Of a DNA stretch of 54,725 nucleotides, positions 29,931 through 40,235 are shown in pieces; positions within the stretch are counted from its first letter, which is position 1; every line of letters begins with the position of its first letter. The translations under genes and the position numbers were made by a program. Below the pieces are notes generated by a model. It saw only the letters and a list, made by a program, of their open reading frames with translations. It did no database searches and had not been told where the DNA came from. Source of the stretch: Desulfobacteraceae bacterium (GTDB taxonomy: Bacteria; Desulfobacterota; Desulfobacteria; Desulfobacterales; Desulfobacteraceae); the NCBI GenBank assembly GCA_024226935.1, contig JAAELK010000067.1, forward strand, positions 1-54,725, written 5' to 3'.

Positions 29931-31175
29931 TTACCGGATAAGAGGAACGGTCAGTCCTCCATCCATTAAAAAGAGGACGGAGGCATTTCTTCCTTTTTCT
30001 TCCAAGGCCTTGTCAATGGCGGTTTGAAGATTGGAAAAAGGAGTGATGAACAATTTTGAAATTACATCAGGATCCACATCGGTCACCCCCCACATCTGAG
30101 CCCATAATCCAATTTGGGCCATTTTGGCAGCCTTGTGGTAGCCTAGAACATATCCCTGCTCAATTTTATCCAATGCTGCTTTGGGTGTTTTGCAGGAGCC
30201 TAAAAGATCGGCAAAGGCTTTGCCTCCGATGCCGCATCTGCATTTGGCCACAAGGATCATGATTCCGTTTTCCTTCAGGGCCAGTTTGGCATTGTCAATT
30301 CCTTTCTGGGCCTGGTACAGGTCAATATCCTGGGGGAATTTTACCACGGATACCACAATATCCGCCTTTTCCTTCAAGGGGGCTGCAAAGACTTCATTGG
30401 CCTTATCAATGGCGGCATGGAAGGAATCATGGATATGACCTGCGCAGGTGGCGTAGACTTTGTGGTGTTTGTCCAGGACCGTCATGATGGAAAAAATTTC
30501 CTGTTTAACGGTTTTTATGGCGTCCATCATATCTTCGTGTACGGGGTTGCCGTCCAGGGCCAGGGCCCGGGCTTCAGGCGCAAGGGCCAGTTTATGGTTT
30601 TGCTCAATGGTCGCAAATCCTGCAATTCCAGGTAAAAAGGATTTTCTGCCCCCGGTGTATCCGGCAAAATAATGGGGCTCAACCGAAGAGATAATAATGA
30701 TTTTATCGGCTTCCACTCCGGCTTTATTTACGTACATCTTTGTCCCATTGGAGGAGGTGCCTAAAAAGATCTGATCTTCTTTTTTTCTGGCATCATGTAC
30801 AATAATATGTTCCATTATCTGTTCATAATAGGGACCAAAAATCTGGAAATACTCTTCTTTTGTGGGGCCTCTGTGGGCACCTGTGGCAATGATGAATTTA
30901 TAATTTTTTTGGCTTAATTCCTTAAAAATCACATCTAATACTTTTTGGGTGGGAGTGGGTCTTGTGGCATCGTTGACAATGACCAGCACCTTTTTAGCAT
31001 CCCCTAAAAAATCTTTGAAATTTTTGCTGTTAATGGGGTTGGCAATGGAATTTATTATCGCCTCATCTTCATTTTTAATCTCAACATCATTTGCTTCAAG
31101 AAAGTCTACCTGGATGTCATCACCAATAACGGCTGACATTACGCCTTCTTTTCCGTAGGGTACATCAATTAGCAT
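29931..31175 (-). CDS. larA: LarA family nickel-pincer racemase (probable lactate racemase)
   Basis: LarA racemases interconvert D- and L-2-hydroxy acids with a nickel-pincer nucleotide. The 414-residue protein retains the residues known from the Lactobacillus enzyme in order. They are Asp and Arg in VNDATRPTPT, the proton-relay His in ATGAHRGPT, and the second His and pincer-attaching Lys in EPHYFAGYTGGRKSFLPG. Also present are the His in IEQNHKLA and the Gln and Lys in YQAQKGIDNA. LarA homologues differ in substrate, but the upstream glcD-type oxidase makes lactate or a close analogue most likely. AAAGGAGG precedes the ATG. It follows the Fe-S gene by 11 bp. The cofactor genes larB, larC and larE are not in the window. 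Confidence 0.85.
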   Translation of the reverse strand: MLIDVPYGKEGVMSAVIGDDIQVDFLEANDVEIKNEDEAIINSIANPINSKNFKDFLGDAKKVLVIVNDATRPTPTQKVLDVIFKELSQKNYKFIIATGAHRGPTKEEYFQIFGPYYEQIMEHIIVHDARKKEDQIFLGTSSNGTKMYVNKAGVEADKIIIISSVEPHYFAGYTGGRKSFLPGIAGFATIEQNHKLALAPEARALALDGNPVHEDMMDAIKTVKQEIFSIMTVLDKHHKVYATCAGHIHDSFHAAIDKANEVFAAPLKEKADIVVSVVKFPQDIDLYQAQKGIDNAKLALKENGIMILVAKCRCGIGGKAFADLLGSCKTPKAALDKIEQGYVLGYHKAAKMAQIGLWAQMWGVTDVDPDVISKLFITPFSNLQTAIDKALEEKGRNASVLFLMDGGLTVPLIR

Positions 31176-31186
31176 TAATTCCTCCT

Positions 31187-32134
31187 TTAGGCTATGGGGC
31201 CCAGGGTGTTCATCTTGTCAACAAAGGTATCGATTTTAGCCTGGAATAGTGCCTTGTCTCCGGCTGGGATTTCCACCAGCTGCACCCGTTCAGGATCAAT
31301 TTCGATGGTTTTAAGGGTGTTTTGAAGGTTGGCGACCATTTTTTTTGCTTTTATATTGCCGTCGTGTTGACATTCTCCTTCAGGGCAGCAGGCCACAAGG
31401 ACGCCCCATGCATTGTTGAGAAATGGTGCCATGAGCAATTGTGCTTCAAGCCGTCCACCGCACATATTGACCAGGATTTCATAGGCATTGTCCTTTGTTT
31501 CCGATTTGGGTAATTGGGATGCCTGGAGTTCCGGATAATAGGACCAGTTACAGGCAAATACAATGGCTTTTGCCGATGAATGGGAGGCTAAAAATGATTC
31601 GGCTTTTTTGGTTAATTCTTCACGGCTGGTGCCAAAACTGTTTTCAATTGTGGCAGCTCCCGCCGGGCAGGCTTCCACACAGATACCGCAGGACTGGCAT
31701 TTGGAAGGATCAGTCTCAATGCCTGTTTCCTGATTAGATCTGGCTTCGTGGGGGCAGACTCCTATGCAGATAAGGCATCTGGCACAATTCATATGGGTGA
31801 TGGAGGTGGTACCGGGGCCTTTTAGCCCCATTGCCAGTAGATCTTTTTTTGCATCGGTAAATATTTCGGTCAGGCTGACTCCTGAGGAACAGGCAGCTTC
31901 ACATCGTTTGCAGTAAAAACAATTAAACAGTTTTTTTGCAGCCCCGGGGGTGGGTTTGATTTGTCCGGCCAAAAGGCCGAAGGCTGTGATGATTTTGGCC
32001 CGGGGCGCATCAGATTCCCAATTTGTATATTTAAACATCGGACAATGCTCAAAACAATATCCACACCTGATACAGCTTGCCAGTGTGGCGTCCCATTTTT
32101 TTAAATGCGTAAATTTTTTTTCTTTGATTTTCAT
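31187..32134 (-). CDS. Multi-cluster Fe-S protein fused to an MvhD/FlpD-like domain
   Basis: The 315-residue protein has four 4Fe-4S motifs: CIRCGYCFEHCP and CFYCKRCEAAC (GlpC-like pair), then CARCLICIGVCP and CQSCGICVEACP (ferredoxin-like pair). From about residue 190 follows an MvhD/FlpD-type domain (IVFACNWSYY, VNMCGGR, ACCPEGECQHDGNIKA). That domain links electron donors to heterodisulfide reductase in methanogens and sulfate reducers. The usual CNWC reads CNWS here. GAGG precedes the ATG. It lies 17 bp after the FAD oxidase and 11 bp before larA, so it probably accepts electrons from the FAD oxidase. The MvhD part hints that they go to a soluble Hdr-like partner rather than straight to quinone. 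Confidence 0.8.
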   Translation of the reverse strand: MKIKEKKFTHLKKWDATLASCIRCGYCFEHCPMFKYTNWESDAPRAKIITAFGLLAGQIKPTPGAAKKLFNCFYCKRCEAACSSGVSLTEIFTDAKKDLLAMGLKGPGTTSITHMNCARCLICIGVCPHEARSNQETGIETDPSKCQSCGICVEACPAGAATIENSFGTSREELTKKAESFLASHSSAKAIVFACNWSYYPELQASQLPKSETKDNAYEILVNMCGGRLEAQLLMAPFLNNAWGVLVACCPEGECQHDGNIKAKKMVANLQNTLKTIEIDPERVQLVEIPAGDKALFQAKIDTFVDKMNTLGPIA

Positions 32135-32151
32135 TCAAGCTTCCTCATTTA

Positions 32152-33585
32152 TTAGCTGTTCACAGAATATCTCAGGTTGGTGGCGGTTACCCAATCATCC
32201 GGGGCTTGCATGAGTTTCCCGGGATTTAGTATGTTATTGGGGTCCAATGCTTTTTTGATGGTCTGGAGCAACCATAAAGAATCTGCTTTTTCAGTCTTGA
32301 ACGCTGCTGCCTTGGAAAGTCCTATGCCATGTTCGGCACTGGTGGTACCATTGACCGATTGCACATAGTCATAGATTTCGCCGATGGCTTTTTGGGCAGA
32401 CTGCCACTGGTCTTTACGTCTGGTATCCATCAATATTTTGGTGTGCATACAGCCGGAGCCGCAATGGCCGTAGGCGGTCATGATAATATTATTTTTTTTA
32501 GCCACCTCATGGATTTTACCGGCCATTTGCGCCATTTTGGAATAGGGGACTGCCATGTCATCTGCCAGGGAGGTGGAGGACAGGTTGTCATCATATTTGG
32601 ACAGGGCGGGGAATAGTTTTTTTCTGCCCATGAAAATTTTTGCCCGCTCCTTGGGGTCATAGCTTGAATGAAGATCTTTGCCGTGGTGCTTTTCACAGAT
32701 AAGTTTCATCTTGTTGATTTCATAGTCAACAGCTTCTTTGACCATGCCGTCGGCTTCAAAGATAAGGGCGGCCGCTACTTCTTTTAGGCCTAAGTTCATA
32801 GTCTTGTTGACGGCTTTGATGGCAATGGAGTCAACAAGTTCCAGCATGGAGGGGATGGCTCCCGAGGACATGATGGATCCAATGGCTTGTCCTGCATCCT
32901 CAAGGGAATCAAAATTGGCAATACCCATGCACCTGAACTCCGGGATGGGTACAAAACTTAAGGTGGCTTCAACCACTACGCCCAATGTTCCTTCGGATCC
33001 GATCATGAGTTTGTGGAGTTGATATCCGGAAGCTTCCACCCGGGTGCGGGCTCCTAAATTAACCAATTTTCCGTTGGGCATAACTACTTTCATCCCGAGG
33101 ACTGCATCCCGGGTGGCCCCATATTTTACTGATCTTACGCCGCTGGCATTGTTGGCAATCTCTCCTCCGATGGTGGCGATTCGGGAGGAAGCAGGAGTGG
33201 GCGGATAAAAGACCCCATACTGTTTTAAGGCCAGATTGAGATCATCGTCCACCACACCTGGTTCCACCCGACAATAGACATCGGGCATATTGATTTCTAA
33301 AATCCTGTTCATTCCTTTCATATCCAGGATAATTCCTCCGTGGATTGGTACAGTCTGCCCGCACATGCCAGATCCGCCACCTCTTGGGGTGACGGGAATG
33401 AGTGCTTGGTTGGCATATTCCATTATCTTTTGAACCTGCAGGGTGGTATCCGGTTTGACAATCACCCATGGTATTGCATGGTGGACAGAAGCATCAGAAC
33501 CGTATACATACAGGTCTGATGGATCCGATTTGATGTTTTTTTCCCCTACAATCTCTCTTAATCGAGGTTCGTCAACCGATTTCAT
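32152..33585 (-). CDS. FAD-binding oxidoreductase (GlcD/D-lactate dehydrogenase type)
   Basis: The 477-residue protein is of the VAO/GlcD family, oxidising D-lactate, glycolate or related 2-hydroxy acids. The FAD-binding half contains VTPRGGGSGMCGQTVPIHGG, SRIATIGGEIANNASGVRSVKYGATRD and LMIGSEGTLGVVVEATLSF. The C-terminal cap has AYGHCGSGCMHTKILMD and TTSAEHGIGLSKA, which holds the catalytic His region. GGGAG precedes the ATG. It heads the three-gene unit with the Fe-S/MvhD protein and larA. In sulfate reducers such genes feed lactate carbon to pyruvate. L-lactate could enter through the racemase. Confidence 0.88.
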   Translation of the reverse strand: MKSVDEPRLREIVGEKNIKSDPSDLYVYGSDASVHHAIPWVIVKPDTTLQVQKIMEYANQALIPVTPRGGGSGMCGQTVPIHGGIILDMKGMNRILEINMPDVYCRVEPGVVDDDLNLALKQYGVFYPPTPASSRIATIGGEIANNASGVRSVKYGATRDAVLGMKVVMPNGKLVNLGARTRVEASGYQLHKLMIGSEGTLGVVVEATLSFVPIPEFRCMGIANFDSLEDAGQAIGSIMSSGAIPSMLELVDSIAIKAVNKTMNLGLKEVAAALIFEADGMVKEAVDYEINKMKLICEKHHGKDLHSSYDPKERAKIFMGRKKLFPALSKYDDNLSSTSLADDMAVPYSKMAQMAGKIHEVAKKNNIIMTAYGHCGSGCMHTKILMDTRRKDQWQSAQKAIGEIYDYVQSVNGTTSAEHGIGLSKAAAFKTEKADSLWLLQTIKKALDPNNILNPGKLMQAPDDWVTATNLRYSVNS

Positions 33586-33853: not shown

Positions 33854-35791
33854 ATGACCCATACAATTAATTTTTTGCCCTGGAATAATTGCATTAAGGT
33901 TGAAGAGAATGAAAGCCTGATACGAGCGGCCATGGAAGCAGGGGTGCATATTAATGCTTCCTGTGGTGGGACTGGTGTCTGTGGAAAATGTCGGGTGCTG
34001 ATAGAACAAGGAGAGGTTGAAGGCGGTGTTTCAGAACATCTTTCACCCGAAGATCAAGCCCTGGGATATCGTCTGGCCTGTTCATCCACGGTCACCTCTG
34101 ATCTTGTAGTGAGAATTCCCGTGGAATCCCAGATAGAGACCAGTCGTCTAAACCAAACGTCAAAGAGCCGACATACTGCAAAGGCCATGTTTACAAATGT
34201 GGATGCACTCAGGGAAAACGGCCTTTTTATTCCGCCCGTGGAAAAAATTTATCTTGAATTGGATCCTGCGGGGGAAGGGGATAACAGGGCGGATGTGGCA
34301 AGAATTATCGACCATCTTCGAATGAATCATGATGAGCACCGCCTGACCATGGGGCTTGGTCTGATACGCAAAATCCCGGATATTATTCGGAAAGGTAATT
34401 TTAATATAACCGCTACCATTGTTCGTCCGGTTCGAAAAGATGGGAAAAATAGAATCATCAATATCGAGCCCTTTGATACCAGCGATAGAAATTTTGCCAT
34501 TGCCTTGGATATAGGCACTACCACTGTATATGGTCAGGCCCTGGACCTGCACACAGGGGAAGTGTTGGCCCAGCACGGTGAATTTAATAGTCAGATCTCC
34601 TATGGGGAAGATGTTATTTCCAGGATTGTTTTTGCAGAAAAAGGGGATGGACTTGAAGTTCTCCACAAAAAAATTGTGGAGACCATCAATAAAATTATCG
34701 AAAAAATTGTCAAGAAGTCTGGTATCGGTATCCATGAGGTTTCCACCATCACCCTGGCCGGCAATTCTACCATGACTCAATTGTTATTGAAAATTAATCC
34801 CACCTATATTCGGAAGGATCCCTATGTTCCGGCATCCATCATGTATCCACCTTTTCGTGCCTCAAAGATAGGCATCGGTCTGGCTGATCATACCATTGCT
34901 CTGATTTATCCGGGGGTTTCTTCCTATGTGGGCGGGGATATCATTGCCGGTATCATGGCATCGGGCATGTATCTGTCAGATAAATTGACTCTGTATATGG
35001 ATATTGGTACCAACGCAGAAATAGCCATTGGTCATAAGGACTGGATGGTCTGTACGGCGGCTTCGGCAGGACCTGCCTTTGAAGGGGGTGGGGTAAAATT
35101 TGGTATGCGGGCCACCAAGGGAGCCATCGAAGATTTTTCCATCAACCCCGGCAATTATGAACCCATGATCATTACTGTGGGTAATGTGCGTGCCAAGGGT
35201 ATTTGCGGGTCAGGTTTGATAACTCTTGCAGCCAAACTTCTGGAAACCGGGGTGATCGATTCCAGGGGCAAGTTTAATCAGAGTCTTCCCACTTCCCGTA
35301 TCCGGAAAGTTGAAGACATCTGGGAATATGTTCTGGTTTATAAGGAAAATACCCAGATTGACCGGGATATCACGATTACAGAGCCGGATCTGGATAATTT
35401 GATCAGGGCAAAAGGGGCCATGTATTCTGCTGCTTTAACCTTATTGGATGAGATTGGTCTTACGGTCAAGGATATAGAAAAAATCATTCTGGCCGGGGGA
35501 TTCGGTTCCTTTGTGGATCTTGAATCTGCTATTACCATTGGGCTTTTGCCGGAACTTGATCCGGATAAGGTGACATATCTTGGTAATGGCTCTCTGCTGG
35601 GCTCCAGGATCAACTGCCTGACCAATTCTCTTCGCCAGAATGTGGCCGAGGTGGTGAATATGATGACAAATTTTGAGTTGGCATCCACTCCTTCTTATAT
35701 GGATCATTATATGGGTGCTTTGTTCATGCCCCATACACAGTTAAATTATTTTCCAAAGGTTAAGGCCCGTCTTGAAGGACTGCGGAAGTGA
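33854..35791 (+). CDS. RACE-type ferredoxin-ASKHA activator protein
   Basis: The 645-residue protein has three parts. The first is an N-terminal 2Fe-2S ferredoxin with ligands C37, C43, C46 and C76 (SCGGTGVCGKC...RLACSS). Next is a middle domain (about 110-210). Last is a C-terminal ASKHA ATPase (DUF4445) with ALDIGTTTVYGQ, LAGNSTMTQLLL, MDIGTNAEIAIG and GGFGSFVDLESA. Proteins of this layout (RamA, RACE) use ATP to drive reduction of inactive cob(II)alamin in corrinoid methyltransferases. No corrinoid protein or methyltransferase gene is in this window, so the client is unknown. It overlaps the next, paralogous gene by four bases (GTGA), implying tight coupling. Confidence 0.85.
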   Translation: MTHTINFLPWNNCIKVEENESLIRAAMEAGVHINASCGGTGVCGKCRVLIEQGEVEGGVSEHLSPEDQALGYRLACSSTVTSDLVVRIPVESQIETSRLNQTSKSRHTAKAMFTNVDALRENGLFIPPVEKIYLELDPAGEGDNRADVARIIDHLRMNHDEHRLTMGLGLIRKIPDIIRKGNFNITATIVRPVRKDGKNRIINIEPFDTSDRNFAIALDIGTTTVYGQALDLHTGEVLAQHGEFNSQISYGEDVISRIVFAEKGDGLEVLHKKIVETINKIIEKIVKKSGIGIHEVSTITLAGNSTMTQLLLKINPTYIRKDPYVPASIMYPPFRASKIGIGLADHTIALIYPGVSSYVGGDIIAGIMASGMYLSDKLTLYMDIGTNAEIAIGHKDWMVCTAASAGPAFEGGGVKFGMRATKGAIEDFSINPGNYEPMIITVGNVRAKGICGSGLITLAAKLLETGVIDSRGKFNQSLPTSRIRKVEDIWEYVLVYKENTQIDRDITITEPDLDNLIRAKGAMYSAALTLLDEIGLTVKDIEKIILAGGFGSFVDLESAITIGLLPELDPDKVTYLGNGSLLGSRINCLTNSLRQNVAEVVNMMTNFELASTPSYMDHYMGALFMPHTQLNYFPKVKARLEGLRK

Positions 35792-37473
35792 TAAAAAAAT
35801 CTCCAGGTAAGGGAGCTGTCCGGTTTATCGAAATTGAAAAACCGTTCCTGGGCAACAATATAGCAGATGCCCAGCGTCTGGAACAGGCTTTGAAAAAGGA
35901 GTTGGGAAACAAGCTTGGCAATCAAGGGGTAAAGATTCCCTGGTATTTACTTAAAAATCTTCCCTCTTTCTTAAGGACCTGGGATTACAAGGCAAGAGCG
36001 GTTTTGTTCAAAGACCGCAGGGGCTGGCGATTGGTGGATCTGCTTGCTCCTTGTTTGATTGACCCGGTTCAGATCAAATCGGATCAAAACAGGCCCGATC
36101 AGATTAAGACCGATCAGATTAAGACCGATCAGATTAAAACTGATCAGATTAAAACTGATCAGATTAAAACCGATCTGTCGCGGCCTGTGTTGGGGGTTGC
36201 CATCGATCTTGGTACTACCCGGATTGTGATCCGGCTTTTAGATCTTGAGTCTAATCAGATCCTGGGTGAAGTGGGGTTTGATAATCCCCAGGTTATCATT
36301 GGTCCGGATGTGTTGGCAAGGATTCATCATTCAAACAAGCCAGGTGGCCTTGATCAACTCCAGGGCCTTTTGGTGGATGGGGTGAATGCAAACCTGTCCC
36401 GATTATGTCGGGAAAATGGATGTGATACGAAAGATATCTATCTTGTGACGGGGGCGGGTAATACTGCCATGACCCATCTATTTTTAGGTGTTGAGGCATT
36501 TGAGATTATACGTGAACCTTATATCCCCTGTGTGAATATTCCGGATACCCTCATGGCCAGAGAGGTGGGTATAAATATAAATGACAAAGGCCTGCTCTTT
36601 GTCTTTCCCAATATCGGGTCCTATTTTGGCGGTGATCTTATTGCCGGAATTTTATTTGCTGATTTGGATAAAAGCCGGGTCCCTTGTCTCATGGTGGATG
36701 TGGGTACCAATGCCGAGATTGTGGTGGGCAGCCGGGATTGGCTTATTGCCTGCGCCGGAGCCGCAGGTCCTGCTCTGGAAGGCGGTGTCAGTAAAATGGG
36801 TATGACTGCAGGGCCTGGTGTTATTGACAGGGTTACCATTGATCCTGTCACCCGGGAGGTGAATGTCCATACAATTGAAGAAAAAAGACCCGTTGGTATC
36901 TGTGGTTCTGGAATGATCGATCTGGCCGCCGCCCTTTTTTTATCGGGCATGATTGATGTCCGGGGAAAATTTTCTGAAAAGATCTGTGGAGACCGGCTCA
37001 GGCAAATTGCCGGGATACTTTTCTTTGTTCTGGTGGATAAAAAAAGTTCCGGCACGGGGCAGGATATCTGCTTAAGCCAGATAGATCTTAATTCCCTGAC
37101 CAGTTCCAAGGCAGCCATGTATACCATTTTGGAAGTGATTGTTGAAAAAACTGCCGGTCTTGAATTTGAAGATTTGGAAACTTTTTATGTGGCAGGCACC
37201 TTTGGTTCCTTTATTAAGCCTGCTTCTGCTATTTCAATCGGTATGTTACCCGACATCGATCAATCAAGATTTGAGGTGCTGGGCAACTCTTCTTTGGGGG
37301 GAGCTGCCCTGCTGCTTCAAAACCCTTCTCTTTTTGACAGGATTATGGAGATTCGACAGTCCATCACCTATGTAGAATTGAATGTGAATCAGGAATTTAT
37401 GACTATGTTTTCCGGGGCCAAGTTTTATCCCCATACGGATCGATCCAGATTTCCATCGGTTGATCCGGTATGA
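35788..37473 (+). CDS. Ferredoxin-less ASKHA protein, paralogue of the preceding gene
   Basis: The 561-residue protein matches the preceding one from its middle domain onward (IEIEKPFLGNNIADAQRLEQ aligns with LELDPAGEGDNRADVARI) but has no 2Fe-2S domain. A linker of five exact DQIKT repeats (residues about 104-128) then joins the ASKHA core: AIDLGTTRIVIRLL, VTGAGNTAMTHL, MVDVGTNAEIVVGS, AAGPALEGGVSKMGM and AGTFGSFIKPASA. ATPase motifs look intact. The GTG start at 35788 overlaps the stop of its partner. I infer a heteromer, with the first protein supplying the electron and this one an ATPase or regulatory half. A decayed duplicate is less likely, since the frame and motifs are preserved. Confidence 0.75.
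   Translation: MIKKSPGKGAVRFIEIEKPFLGNNIADAQRLEQALKKELGNKLGNQGVKIPWYLLKNLPSFLRTWDYKARAVLFKDRRGWRLVDLLAPCLIDPVQIKSDQNRPDQIKTDQIKTDQIKTDQIKTDQIKTDLSRPVLGVAIDLGTTRIVIRLLDLESNQILGEVGFDNPQVIIGPDVLARIHHSNKPGGLDQLQGLLVDGVNANLSRLCRENGCDTKDIYLVTGAGNTAMTHLFLGVEAFEIIREPYIPCVNIPDTLMAREVGININDKGLLFVFPNIGSYFGGDLIAGILFADLDKSRVPCLMVDVGTNAEIVVGSRDWLIACAGAAGPALEGGVSKMGMTAGPGVIDRVTIDPVTREVNVHTIEEKRPVGICGSGMIDLAAALFLSGMIDVRGKFSEKICGDRLRQIAGILFFVLVDKKSSGTGQDICLSQIDLNSLTSSKAAMYTILEVIVEKTAGLEFEDLETFYVAGTFGSFIKPASAISIGMLPDIDQSRFEVLGNSSLGGAALLLQNPSLFDRIMEIRQSITYVELNVNQEFMTMFSGAKFYPHTDRSRFPSVDPV
36097..36171 (+). repeat. 15-nt in-frame minisatellite (five units)
   Basis: Five adjacent copies of GATCAGATTAAGACC or its variants with AAAAC and a final T encode DQIKT five times. 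Degenerate flanks lie on both sides (SDQNRPDQ before, DLSRP after). The length is a multiple of three, so copy-number change would keep the reading frame. It lies in the linker between two domains. Confidence 0.9.
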
Positions 37474-37619: not shown

Positions 37620-39242
37620 ATGAGAAAAATAGTCGAATGTGTCCCCAATTTTTCAGAAGGACGGAACATTGAAACCATTGAGGCCATTTCTAAAGTTATC
37701 CGCGATACTCCCGGGGTAAGTCTTTTGGATGTAGATCCAGGCAAGTCCACCAACCGAACGGTTTATACTTTTGTGGGTAGCCCAGGGGCCGTAGTGGAAG
37801 GGGCGTTAAACGCAGCCAGGGTGGCAAAAAAGCTCATTGATATGCAAACCCATACGGGCGAGCATCACCGCATGGGGGCCATGGATGTCTGCCCTTTTAT
37901 TCCAGTGGCCAATGTGACCATGGAAGAATGTGTGGCTATTTCCAAGGAATTTGCCAGGCGGGCAGCCGAGGAATTGGATATTCCCATTTATCTTTATGAA
38001 GAATCTGCCACCCTGGATTATCGTAAAAAATTGCCCCAGATCAGGGAGGGTCAATATGAGGCCGTAAAAGATCGTATTATCACCCCCCAATGGAAACCAG
38101 ATTTTGGACCGGCTAAGTTCAACCCCCAATGGGGTGCCACGGTCACGGGTGCCAGGTTCTTCCTCATTGCTTATAATGTTAATCTTTTATCCACCCCCAA
38201 CCAGGCACATAGAATTGCCCTAAATCTTCGGGAAGCAGGCCGCAGCAAGGATAAGCCTGGACAACTCAAGGATGTCAAGGGCATGGGCTGGTACGTGGAT
38301 GAATATAATTTGGCCCAGGTAACGGTGAACCTGAATAATTATTTGGTTACCCCTCCCCATATTTTGTTTGAGGAAGTGAAAAAACAGGCGGCCCAACTTA
38401 AGGTGGGGGTAACCGGTTCTGAAATCGTGGGGGTGGTTCCTCTTGCTGCCATTCTTGCTGCCGCAGATTATTATATTGAAAAAGAAAATCTTTTTGTTCT
38501 GGAAGAAGATCAAAAGGTGCGCCTGGCCATTGAACGTCTGGGCTTAAATTCTGTGGCTCCCTTTAACCCCAAAGAAAAAATTATTGAATATCGTATTGGT
38601 CAAAGCCGGGAGGAACCTCTGGCAGGTCTGAGTGTCAGGGATTTTATTCAGGAAGTGGCTAAAAGAAGTTCTGCTCCCGGCGGCGGGTCTGCTTCTGCCG
38701 CAATTGCGGCCATCGGAGCCGGTTTGGGGTCCATGGTGGCTAAACTCACCCTGGGGGTTAGAAAATTTGAGGATGTGGATGCCAAGATGAGAACCTTGGT
38801 ACCGCCTCTCCATACAGCCGCCAATGCTTTGATTCCCATGATTGATGCCGATACCAATGCCTTTAATGATTATGTGGCTGCCCTGGGTTTACCAGCCGGA
38901 ACTGATCCGGAAAAAAACTTCAGGGAGGAACAACTTCAACAAGGTCTTAAAAAAGCCATTGATATTCCCTTATCCACTATGATTCTTGGTGATCAGGCTT
39001 GGGATGCCATGGTTGAAGTGGCACGCCACGGCAATTTTGCTTCCCGATCCGATGTGGAGGTGGGGGCCCGTGCCCTTGAAATGGGTATCTGGGGGGCCTA
39101 TAAAAATGTTATGATCAATATGGCAGATATTCGGGATGAAACCTATAAGAAAGAGACCTTGGTCCAGGCAAAAGCCTTGAAAGACAGGGCTGCTGCCATG
39201 AGTGTCCAGGTTCTTGAAATCCTCGAAAAAAGATCCGCCTAG
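37620..39242 (+). CDS. ftcD: Glutamate formimidoyltransferase/formimidoyl-THF cyclodeaminase
   Basis: This bifunctional enzyme moves the formimino group of formiminoglutamate to tetrahydrofolate and then releases ammonia, giving methenyl-THF (histidine and purine breakdown). Residues about 1-300 are the transferase: VECVPNFSEGRN, DVDPGKSTNRTVYTFVG and HTGEHHRMGAMDVCPFIPV. Residues about 335-540 are the cyclodeaminase: SVRDFIQEVAKRSSAPGGGSASA, LTLGVRKFEDVD, IDADTNAFNDYVAAL and GNFASRSDVEVGARALE. Length 540 matches the fused mammalian form. It follows the ASKHA pair by 146 bp, with a TATACATGTATA palindrome (37541-37552) in between. A link through one-carbon/folate metabolism to the corrinoid-type activators is possible but not shown. 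Confidence 0.95.
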   Translation: MRKIVECVPNFSEGRNIETIEAISKVIRDTPGVSLLDVDPGKSTNRTVYTFVGSPGAVVEGALNAARVAKKLIDMQTHTGEHHRMGAMDVCPFIPVANVTMEECVAISKEFARRAAEELDIPIYLYEESATLDYRKKLPQIREGQYEAVKDRIITPQWKPDFGPAKFNPQWGATVTGARFFLIAYNVNLLSTPNQAHRIALNLREAGRSKDKPGQLKDVKGMGWYVDEYNLAQVTVNLNNYLVTPPHILFEEVKKQAAQLKVGVTGSEIVGVVPLAAILAAADYYIEKENLFVLEEDQKVRLAIERLGLNSVAPFNPKEKIIEYRIGQSREEPLAGLSVRDFIQEVAKRSSAPGGGSASAAIAAIGAGLGSMVAKLTLGVRKFEDVDAKMRTLVPPLHTAANALIPMIDADTNAFNDYVAALGLPAGTDPEKNFREEQLQQGLKKAIDIPLSTMILGDQAWDAMVEVARHGNFASRSDVEVGARALEMGIWGAYKNVMINMADIRDETYKKETLVQAKALKDRAAAMSVQVLEILEKRSA

Positions 39243-39329: not shown

Positions 39330-40235
39330 ATGCGTAAATTGGCTTTTGGATATTCAACCAGGTGTAATATCAAGTGTGAACATTGCGTGGCTGTCCAAGA
39401 TATTCCCGATACCAGGAAGATGGATCATACCAGGGCAAGGAAAATCATAGTTGAAATGGCCCAGGCAGGTGTGGGTGGAATAAGTTTTTCCGCCGGCGAA
39501 CCGTTTTTGTATTTTAATGAAATGGTGGACCTTGTGAAATTGTGCAGCCAGATGGGAATATATACGAGAATTGTCACCAATAGTTTTTGGGCCAGGACAC
39601 CGGAGTCTTCCGATAATTTTATTTTGAAATTGAAGGAAAACGGGCTTTGCCAATTGAGATTGAGTTATTCAAGGTGGCACCAGAAGAATGTAAACCGGAA
39701 CAATGTGTTGAATGCTGCTCGTAGTTGCCGGAAGATCGGGTTAAATTATTTTATTTCATTTGTTACCGATTTTTTCATGGAGGATGATCCCTATGAACAG
39801 TTTTTGCGGGATAATGACCTAATCTTTTTTCCTGAACCGGTTATATATTCGGGGCGTGCCGCCTCTTTTAAACCCAGGAATATTTTGACCGATTACCAGG
39901 CAAACTGCTGCGAGATGAATCCCTATCTTACTCCGGATCTCGATATGTACGCCTGTTGTGATGCCGGGAGCCATTTTTCCAAAACAAGTTTTTTTTATCT
40001 GGGAAATTTGAACAACAATACAATGGAACAGCTTTTTACTAAAACTGAAACCGATCGATTGTATGGTTTTATAAGAACCATGGGGATAACAAATATCGCT
40101 TCTTTTCTAGGCATGAAGGCCCGCAGGATCATAACCCATAGTAAATGCGGATTGTGCCAGAAACTGTTCAATTCTCCTGAAACATTGGCACGGTTGAGGG
40201 CTGAAGTATCTCAGTTGGAGGCCTGGAGTCGTTAG
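39330..40235 (+). CDS. Radical SAM protein with SPASM-like C-terminus
   Basis: The 301-residue protein starts immediately with the radical SAM cluster motif CNIKCEHC (residues 13-20). GGISFSAGEPFLY (the GGE-like motif) and FVTDFFMEDDPYEQ follow. The C-terminal third has further cysteines (CCEMNPYLTPDLDMYACCDAGSHF and CGLCQKLF) with LGNLNNNTMEQLF, typical of the SPASM/twitch domain of peptide- or protein-modifying enzymes. The substrate is unknown; I found no obvious precursor peptide in the adjacent gaps. It follows a terminator and has no partner gene, so it is likely monocistronic. No ribosome binding site of note precedes the ATG. Confidence 0.75.
   Translation: MRKLAFGYSTRCNIKCEHCVAVQDIPDTRKMDHTRARKIIVEMAQAGVGGISFSAGEPFLYFNEMVDLVKLCSQMGIYTRIVTNSFWARTPESSDNFILKLKENGLCQLRLSYSRWHQKNVNRNNVLNAARSCRKIGLNYFISFVTDFFMEDDPYEQFLRDNDLIFFPEPVIYSGRAASFKPRNILTDYQANCCEMNPYLTPDLDMYACCDAGSHFSKTSFFYLGNLNNNTMEQLFTKTETDRLYGFIRTMGITNIASFLGMKARRIITHSKCGLCQKLFNSPETLARLRAEVSQLEAWSR

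Follow-up and report, generated by a model that had tools for sequence, protein, structure and literature searches.

What might a RACo-type activator of corrinoid proteins do once it lacks an electron carrier? The question is raised by two overlapping genes in a 54,725-nucleotide stretch (the window) of a Desulfobacteraceae genome from the phylum Desulfobacterota (assembly GCA_024226935.1, contig JAAELK010000067.1). The first open reading frame, ORF1, resembles the activator RACo throughout, and the second, ORF2, encodes a RACo-related ASKHA protein with no ferredoxin domain; ORF1-like and ORF2-like proteins are called V1 and V2 throughout. V2 appears from its phylogeny to be an old sister subfamily of RACo and V1, and its distribution tracks carbon monoxide dehydrogenase/acetyl-CoA synthase (CODH/ACS), the system of the corrinoid iron-sulfur protein (CoFeSP). 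An earlier note on this DNA had described two ASKHA corrinoid activators with a 4-base overlap, and both the coordinates and the architecture hold (Table 1). Statements cited here by PMC number refer to the portions available of those papers.

A complete activator and a relative without its electron carrier

ORF1 contains the domains Fer2, RACo_linker, Raco_middle and RACo_C_ter, each above its Pfam cut-off and in the order found in RACo of Carboxydothermus hydrogenoformans (PDB 3zyy, 4c1n); its residues 5-636 match the 3zyy sequence (E 9.7e-146), and the serine equivalent to RACo Ser398 is kept. Against NF040756 (AcsV) it scores 646.3 bits over the whole model, below the curated cut-off of 800. 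Because architecture and Ser398 agree with RACo and the NF040756 score falls short, ORF1 is best classed, on its sequence, as RACo-type rather than as a member of that AcsV model. The structure model of ORF1 is poor (pLDDT, the predicted local distance difference test score, 55.7) and was left unused. In its own genome, the ORF1 gene lies away from the acs operon; V1-type relatives with 62, 45 and 50% identity lie in or beside acs genes (L128, L129, L130).

ORF2 shares with RACo the linker, middle and C-terminal ASKHA parts (RACo_linker, Raco_middle and RACo_C_ter, the last, PF14574, at 314.7 bits against a cut-off of 27) and matches the solved RACo sequence from residue 130 onward. Its structure model (mean pLDDT, 79.8; unreliable, with values under 50, at the repetitive linker, residues 91-130, and at 325-339) has RACo 3zyy as its best PDB fold match. 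Pfam detects no Fer2 in ORF2, in line with the earlier note, and no 2Fe-2S cysteine pattern occurs in 84 V2 ORFs scanned (overlapping loci are counted twice here, and some V2 rows are one gene present in two loci). The ATPase motifs that the note saw retained are likewise present: ORF2 has DLGTTR, DVGTNAE, GICGSG and AGTFGS, and all 32 aligned V2 rows keep DVGTNAE, the first phosphate motif D-[LIV]-G-[ST]-[ST] and G-[TAS]-FG, at which last position 16 of 20 V1 rows have GGFG.

The note had also held that ORF2 lost only the electron-carrying domain, and this proved too narrow. At the RACo-398 column of 58 aligned proteins, read after the RACo residue numbering had been checked, serine is found in RACo and in 20/20 V1-type rows and alanine in 32/32 V2 rows, ORF2 included. 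This is one of six positions in the ASKHA region that are near-fixed yet differ between V1 and V2, as is F403 in the same loop; the V2 loop adjoining the corrinoid is nearly invariant. In the CoFeSP-RACo complex, RACo Ser398 binds cobalt, and stabilization of Co(II) is linked to this residue (PMC4934906), so a RACo relative with alanine is not expected to stabilize Co(II) in the same way; judged by this residue, V2 would not handle Co(II) in the manner of RACo. Since RamA-like activators with a ferredoxin domain also have alanine at 398 (5/5 rows), we do not read Ala398 as proof of a dead activator.

By these features V2 is assigned to the Pfam superfamily PF14574 and, because the 2Fe-2S domain and Ser398 are both absent, is not filed under RACo/AcsV, although its client may nonetheless be the same. 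ORF2 falls below the curated cut-offs of both NF040756 (438.1 bits; cut-off, 800) and the RamA model TIGR04270 (96.9 bits; cut-off, 500). RamA and RamA-like DUF4445 proteins (among them the Phaeobacter and Desulfovibrio proteins for MetH) share the Pfam C-terminal domain of ORF2 and, in the five rows aligned, its Ala398. For DUF4445 proteins there is genetic evidence of a role in B12 reactivation; the Phaeobacter protein differs from ORF2 in having a ferredoxin domain and MetH as its client (PMC5764234).

The phylogeny gives the same division. In a tree of 58 rows, the 32 V2 rows form a single clade (support 100/99), beside which RACo and the V1-type rows group with support 94/89 (less than the tool's star threshold), and V2 and RACo/V1 together are separated from the RamA-like rows (support 100/99). 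Because the V2 rows form one clade beside RACo/V1, V2 is, as far as the tree can tell, an old sister subfamily rather than a local duplicate. ORF1 and ORF2 share 37% identity over 430 amino acids (aa). An origin of V2 as a local duplicate or pseudogene was rejected by the tree and the kept motifs.

Within the window's family, the two genes are coupled. V1 and V2 are adjacent in 14 fetched family loci besides the window, and in 9 of these (by longest-ORF calls) they overlap by 4 bases, the overlap in relatives reading ATGA or GTGA; L067 becomes a tenth case if its V2 begins at an internal ATG. Elsewhere the overlap is 1 base (L061, L063) or the genes are separated by gaps of 12 (L060) or 54 bases (L049). 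Since the 4-base overlap recurs in this way, the coupling is not due to chance. Among the 86 genomes of the family, V2 occurs in at least 61 and is adjacent to V1, as scored by script, in at least 46 of these; two more (G066, G068) have gaps of 204 bases, slightly beyond the script limit. Adjacency is a trait of this family: in the other families' loci that were read, V2 is mostly away from V1 and its neighbors vary. Even within the family, four genomes of genus g3 (G004, G005, G007, G008) keep V1 and V2 intact and apart, with V1 beside a GlcD/FlpD/LarA cluster (L052, L054, L056) and V2 beside MTHFR, flavin adenine dinucleotide (FAD) and HdrA/FlpD genes (L051, L053, L055); in L050 of the same genus, the two lie ~10 kb apart.

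Distribution of V2 and the case for CoFeSP as its client

The earlier note had seen no corrinoid client gene nearby. None lies near the pair, but the same genome carries, on contig C310, a CODH/ACS operon with both CoFeSP subunits, AcsB, CooS and AcsE. The one-carbon context that the note surmised is borne out. This assembly (95% complete, 590 contigs) has three RACo_C_ter genes, namely the ORF1/ORF2 pair and a RamA-like gene on C435, with none on C310. CoFeSP, whose genes lie on a different contig from the pair, is the likely client of V2.

Across 297 genomes of the phylum, V2 is found in at least 66, belonging to at least 29 family labels; the score cut applied (at least 557 bits) makes this count a lower bound. 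Two sequences under the cut (L131 and L132, from G253 and G205) fall inside the V2 clade, and G354 and, as a fragment, G211 hold uncounted sequences of V2-type appearance; all four genomes are CdhC-positive. Among the matches listed, CdhC/AcsB occurs in 65 of the 66 V2 genomes versus 139 of the 231 others. One genome counted as having both (G163) has a weak CdhC match and, besides V2, a single RACo-type gene, RamA-like rather than V1-type. In the window's family, again among the matches listed, the 54 genomes that are at least 90% complete comprise 36 with V2 and CdhC, 13 with neither, 3 with V2 only (G009, G040, G048) and 2 with CdhC only (G044, in which V2 may be lost to a contig end, and G080). 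Over all 86 family genomes, 52 have both and 17 have neither, counts that take in fragmented assemblies and partial V2 genes and leave out a remnant in G026: this complete, CdhC-negative genome has as its only trace of V2 a stretch (L148:7197-7871) matching residues 274-498. V2 thus tracks CODH/ACS.

In six genomes, V2 is the sole RACo_C_ter gene: G119, G154, G184 and G301 of family f44 (95-97% complete), G147 of f55 (99%) and G091 of f17 (85%). Each has two PF03599 (CoFeSP-type) genes, and a B12-binding_2 (PF02607) protein, MetH included, was found in 0/6 in a search restricted to this corrinoid domain type. CoFeSP is therefore the only evident client of a RACo-type protein there. These genomes speak for CoFeSP as the client of V2 and against an obligate V1-V2 dimer; in them, V2 would have to draw on a different electron donor, unless some other factor reactivates CoFeSP. 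The gene immediately upstream of V2, in the same orientation, encodes a cysteine-rich protein in 4/4 f44 loci and in the one f74 locus read (L088, L091, L114, L115, L089); the three of these five proteins that were scanned against Pfam resemble PF03692, one of them at 22.6 bits, just below the cut-off of 23. The ORFs adjoining V2 in L090 and L120 were compared as candidates for the same gene and are unrelated.

A possible role for V2 and its rivals

Two activators frame what V2 might do. The cobalt potential of CoFeSP drops from -450 to below -600 mV once RACo is bound, whereas the O-demethylase activating enzyme (AE) of Acetobacterium dehalogenans, in the presence of ATP, shifts its client's upward, from -530 to -250 mV (PMC6739815). 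We propose that V2 remodels CoFeSP at the expense of ATP, with no cobalt ligation and no electron transport of its own, and relies on a separate donor, a statement that, taken whole, we would put a little short of an even chance. V2 would dock at the corrinoid of CoFeSP without ligating cobalt and, driven by ATP, alter the shape of the complex, which would raise the Co(II)/Co(I) potential or else release or order partners. The electron would come from elsewhere: from the 2Fe-2S domain of ORF1 if V1 is present and otherwise from the 4Fe-4S cluster of CoFeSP, a ferredoxin or another protein. In the window's family, the coupled genes would supply both products at once for a single client; pairing of V2 with V1 would not be required. 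An ATP-dependent rise in potential is the feature that AE would share with V2; AE differs in having its own 2Fe-2S cluster and another corrinoid client (PMC6739815), and the comparison with AE is one of described action. V2 could be a potential shifter fed by an outside electron. More narrowly, it may be an electron-less corrinoid activator that shifts the Co(II)/Co(I) potential for a separate donor, with V1 as the donor where present and, in f44, perhaps the PF03692-like protein; this version is possible, though on balance we doubt it.

Several points weigh against the remodelling proposal. Among the matches listed, V2 is missing by the score cut from 139 of the phylum's CdhC-positive genomes, and it is therefore not needed for CODH/ACS generally; conversely, G168 has V2 without CdhC (its PF03599 matches are of the AcsD kind, plus one weak), and the 86 family genomes include, among the matches listed, 9 with V2 and no CdhC and 8 with CdhC and no V2. 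The co-occurrence counts for phylum and family also ignore shared ancestry. The absence of PF02607 from the V2-only genomes leaves room for corrinoid proteins of other domain types, and the loci read outside the family, examined for a gene that always accompanies V2, revealed none. As for the residue evidence, the low-confidence segment at 325-339 of the V2 model is exactly the loop in question, and Ala398 may, from its presence in RamA-like rows, be ancestral and does not have to signal a new mechanism. Finally, the observations reach as far as domains, residue 398, ancestry, co-occurrence with CODH/ACS and the V2-only genomes; the contact with CoFeSP, the use of ATP and the electron source are each inferred.

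Some of the same observations would suit an ATPase for the assembly or maturation of CoFeSP or CODH/ACS, one that loads corrinoid, holds apo-CoFeSP or orders the methyltransferase complex and reduces no cobalt. The ASKHA fold is common to Hsp70-type ATPases, V2 has neither an electron carrier nor the cobalt-ligating serine, and it accompanies CODH/ACS while lying, outside the family, mostly away from V1. We think such a role rather unlikely, given that V2 keeps the full RACo linker and ASKHA frame with a nearly invariant corrinoid-adjacent loop, is coupled to an activator gene in the window's family, and is, in six genomes, the one RACo-type protein present, where some reactivator is expected. 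Those six genomes also bear on the two-subunit activator that the earlier note had suggested in place of the usual single protein: an obligate V1-V2 heterodimer in which V1 brings the electron, V2 forms the second ATPase half and neither works alone. The note had called for a genome search for the pair, and this cut both ways. The genes adjoin in many family relatives, with the adjacency counts, 204-base gaps and 4-base overlaps given above, and DvMF_1398, which has two DUF4445 domains in one activator (PMC5764234), offers a precedent. However, V2 stands as the lone RACo_C_ter gene in six genomes, many CdhC-positive genomes lack V2 by the cut among the matches listed, and V1 and V2 stand apart in four g3 genomes and in other families, where V2 has other neighbors. 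We disfavor the obligate dimer as improbable.

Also disfavored, and to our mind very improbable, is a different corrinoid client for V2, for instance MetH or the partner of a methyltransferase, with Ala398 as in RamA-type activators. The alanine of all five RamA-like rows fits this, as do the MttB-like/corrinoid/methyltransferase set on C370 and the MetH-sized protein on C564 of the window's own genome. Yet none of the six V2-only genomes has a PF02607 protein, V2 is close in the tree to RACo/V1 and not to the RamA-like rows, and the genome already has a third, RamA-like activator on C435. A functionless, decaying V1 copy would account for the missing domain and for the greater divergence of V2 than V1 among the same relatives (59-80% versus 66-92% identity to the window protein), but we give it practically no weight, since V2 forms a separate deep clade with its motifs kept in 32/32 rows and is present in at least 29 family labels.

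An electron-less activator, if V2 is one, would assign to separate proteins the ATP work and the electron delivery that RACo and AE each perform with a single chain. How the uphill Co(II) reduction of CoFeSP is powered by ATP is, in the words of PMC4934906, "a yet unresolved mechanism". As a natural RACo relative with neither electron carrier nor cobalt-binding serine, V2 would allow the ATP step, electron transfer and cobalt ligation to be separated, and the Wood-Ljungdahl pathway of these organisms would gain a further, mostly unlinked gene. We recognized no description of V2 in the open-licence literature searched (most subscription journals lie outside it), including the available portions of PMC4934906, PMC6739815, PMC12827605, PMC5764234 and PMC7857596.

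Surroundings of the pair and related genes

Table 1. Features of the gene pair and its neighbors in the window
Feature	Position	Strand	Basis and remarks
ORF1 (V1), RACo/AcsV-type corrinoid-protein activator, 645 aa	33854..35791	+	ATG start; Pfam domains, match to RACo 3zyy
2Fe-2S ferredoxin domain of ORF1, residues 14-81	33893..34096	+	Pfam PF00111, 45.9 bits, cut-off 21
Codon of ORF1 Ser404, equivalent of RACo Ser398 (cobalt ligand in RACo-CoFeSP complex)	35063..35065	+	Alignment columns; PMC4934906
GAAGGA, Shine-Dalgarno-like, 8 bases before ORF2 GTG	35774..35779	+	Read in sequence; putative function
GTGA, 4-base overlap of ORF2 start and ORF1 stop	35788..35791	+	Read in sequence
ORF2 (V2), ferredoxin-less RACo-related ASKHA protein, 561 aa	35788..37473	+	GTG start; Pfam domains, fold match, V2 clade
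Repetitive linker of ORF2, DQIKT in-frame repeats, about residues 97-129	36076..36174	+	Alignment; pLDDT under 50 at 91-130
Codon of ORF2 Ala325, at the place of RACo Ser398	36760..36762	+	Alignment column
GlcD - HdrC/FlpD-like - LarA cluster	29931-33585		Divergent from V1
GlcD-like FAD-linked oxidase, first gene of divergent cluster	32152..33585	-	Profile matches; genome neighbor, no shown role in pair
Fused glutamate formiminotransferase/cyclodeaminase (FTCD)	37620..39242	+	Profile matches; neighbor in part of family

Of 17 V1 loci fetched from relatives, 14 (L052, L054, L056-L060, L062-L068) carry the GlcD/FlpD/LarA cluster in divergent orientation to V1, even where V2 sits elsewhere; the LarA-like member of the cluster is nearest to the LarAH6 malate racemase, with a score below that model's cut-off. 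FTCD lies near V2 in four relatives' loci (L058, L059, L066, L149), and the formimino-folate neighbor was set aside as the main clue because it accompanies V2 in only part of the family. Beyond it, a radical SAM protein (window 39330-40235) bears a weak resemblance to peptide epimerases of the YydG type (72.9 bits; cut-off, 300). The repetitive linker of ORF2 varies among relatives, with a different repeat in L065, a shorter one in L064 and none in most other aligned relatives.

Outside the family, an AcsE-like gene lies ~3.7 kb from V2 in L073/L083 (apparently one locus), and L075, L076 and L078 share a lineage-local run of MinD-like, histone-deacetylase-type, CBS, methyltransferase, Lactamase_B and Sir2 genes. 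The MinD-like gene was considered as a CooC/AcsF maturation ATPase and dropped, since no such NCBI model matched.

The third activator of the window's genome (L003:91-2265, on C435) is RamA-like, with Fer2 and alanine at 398, and follows a 194-aa ORF without a Pfam match; the set on C370 (L154) may be its client. A further Ser398-type paralogue of about 694-769 aa is encoded at L133:15619-17715, L137:4825-7134, L138:4061-6157 and L140:3074-5158, each time with a 513-518-aa ORF after it on its strand. Within acs genes, G147 (L118:2807-5968) and G111 (L126:9605-12733) have an apparent MTHFR-AcsD fusion, a single long ORF with an MTHFR match by BLAST and an AcsD-type PF03599 match; similarly long frames are found at the PF03599 match in G254, G315 and G296.

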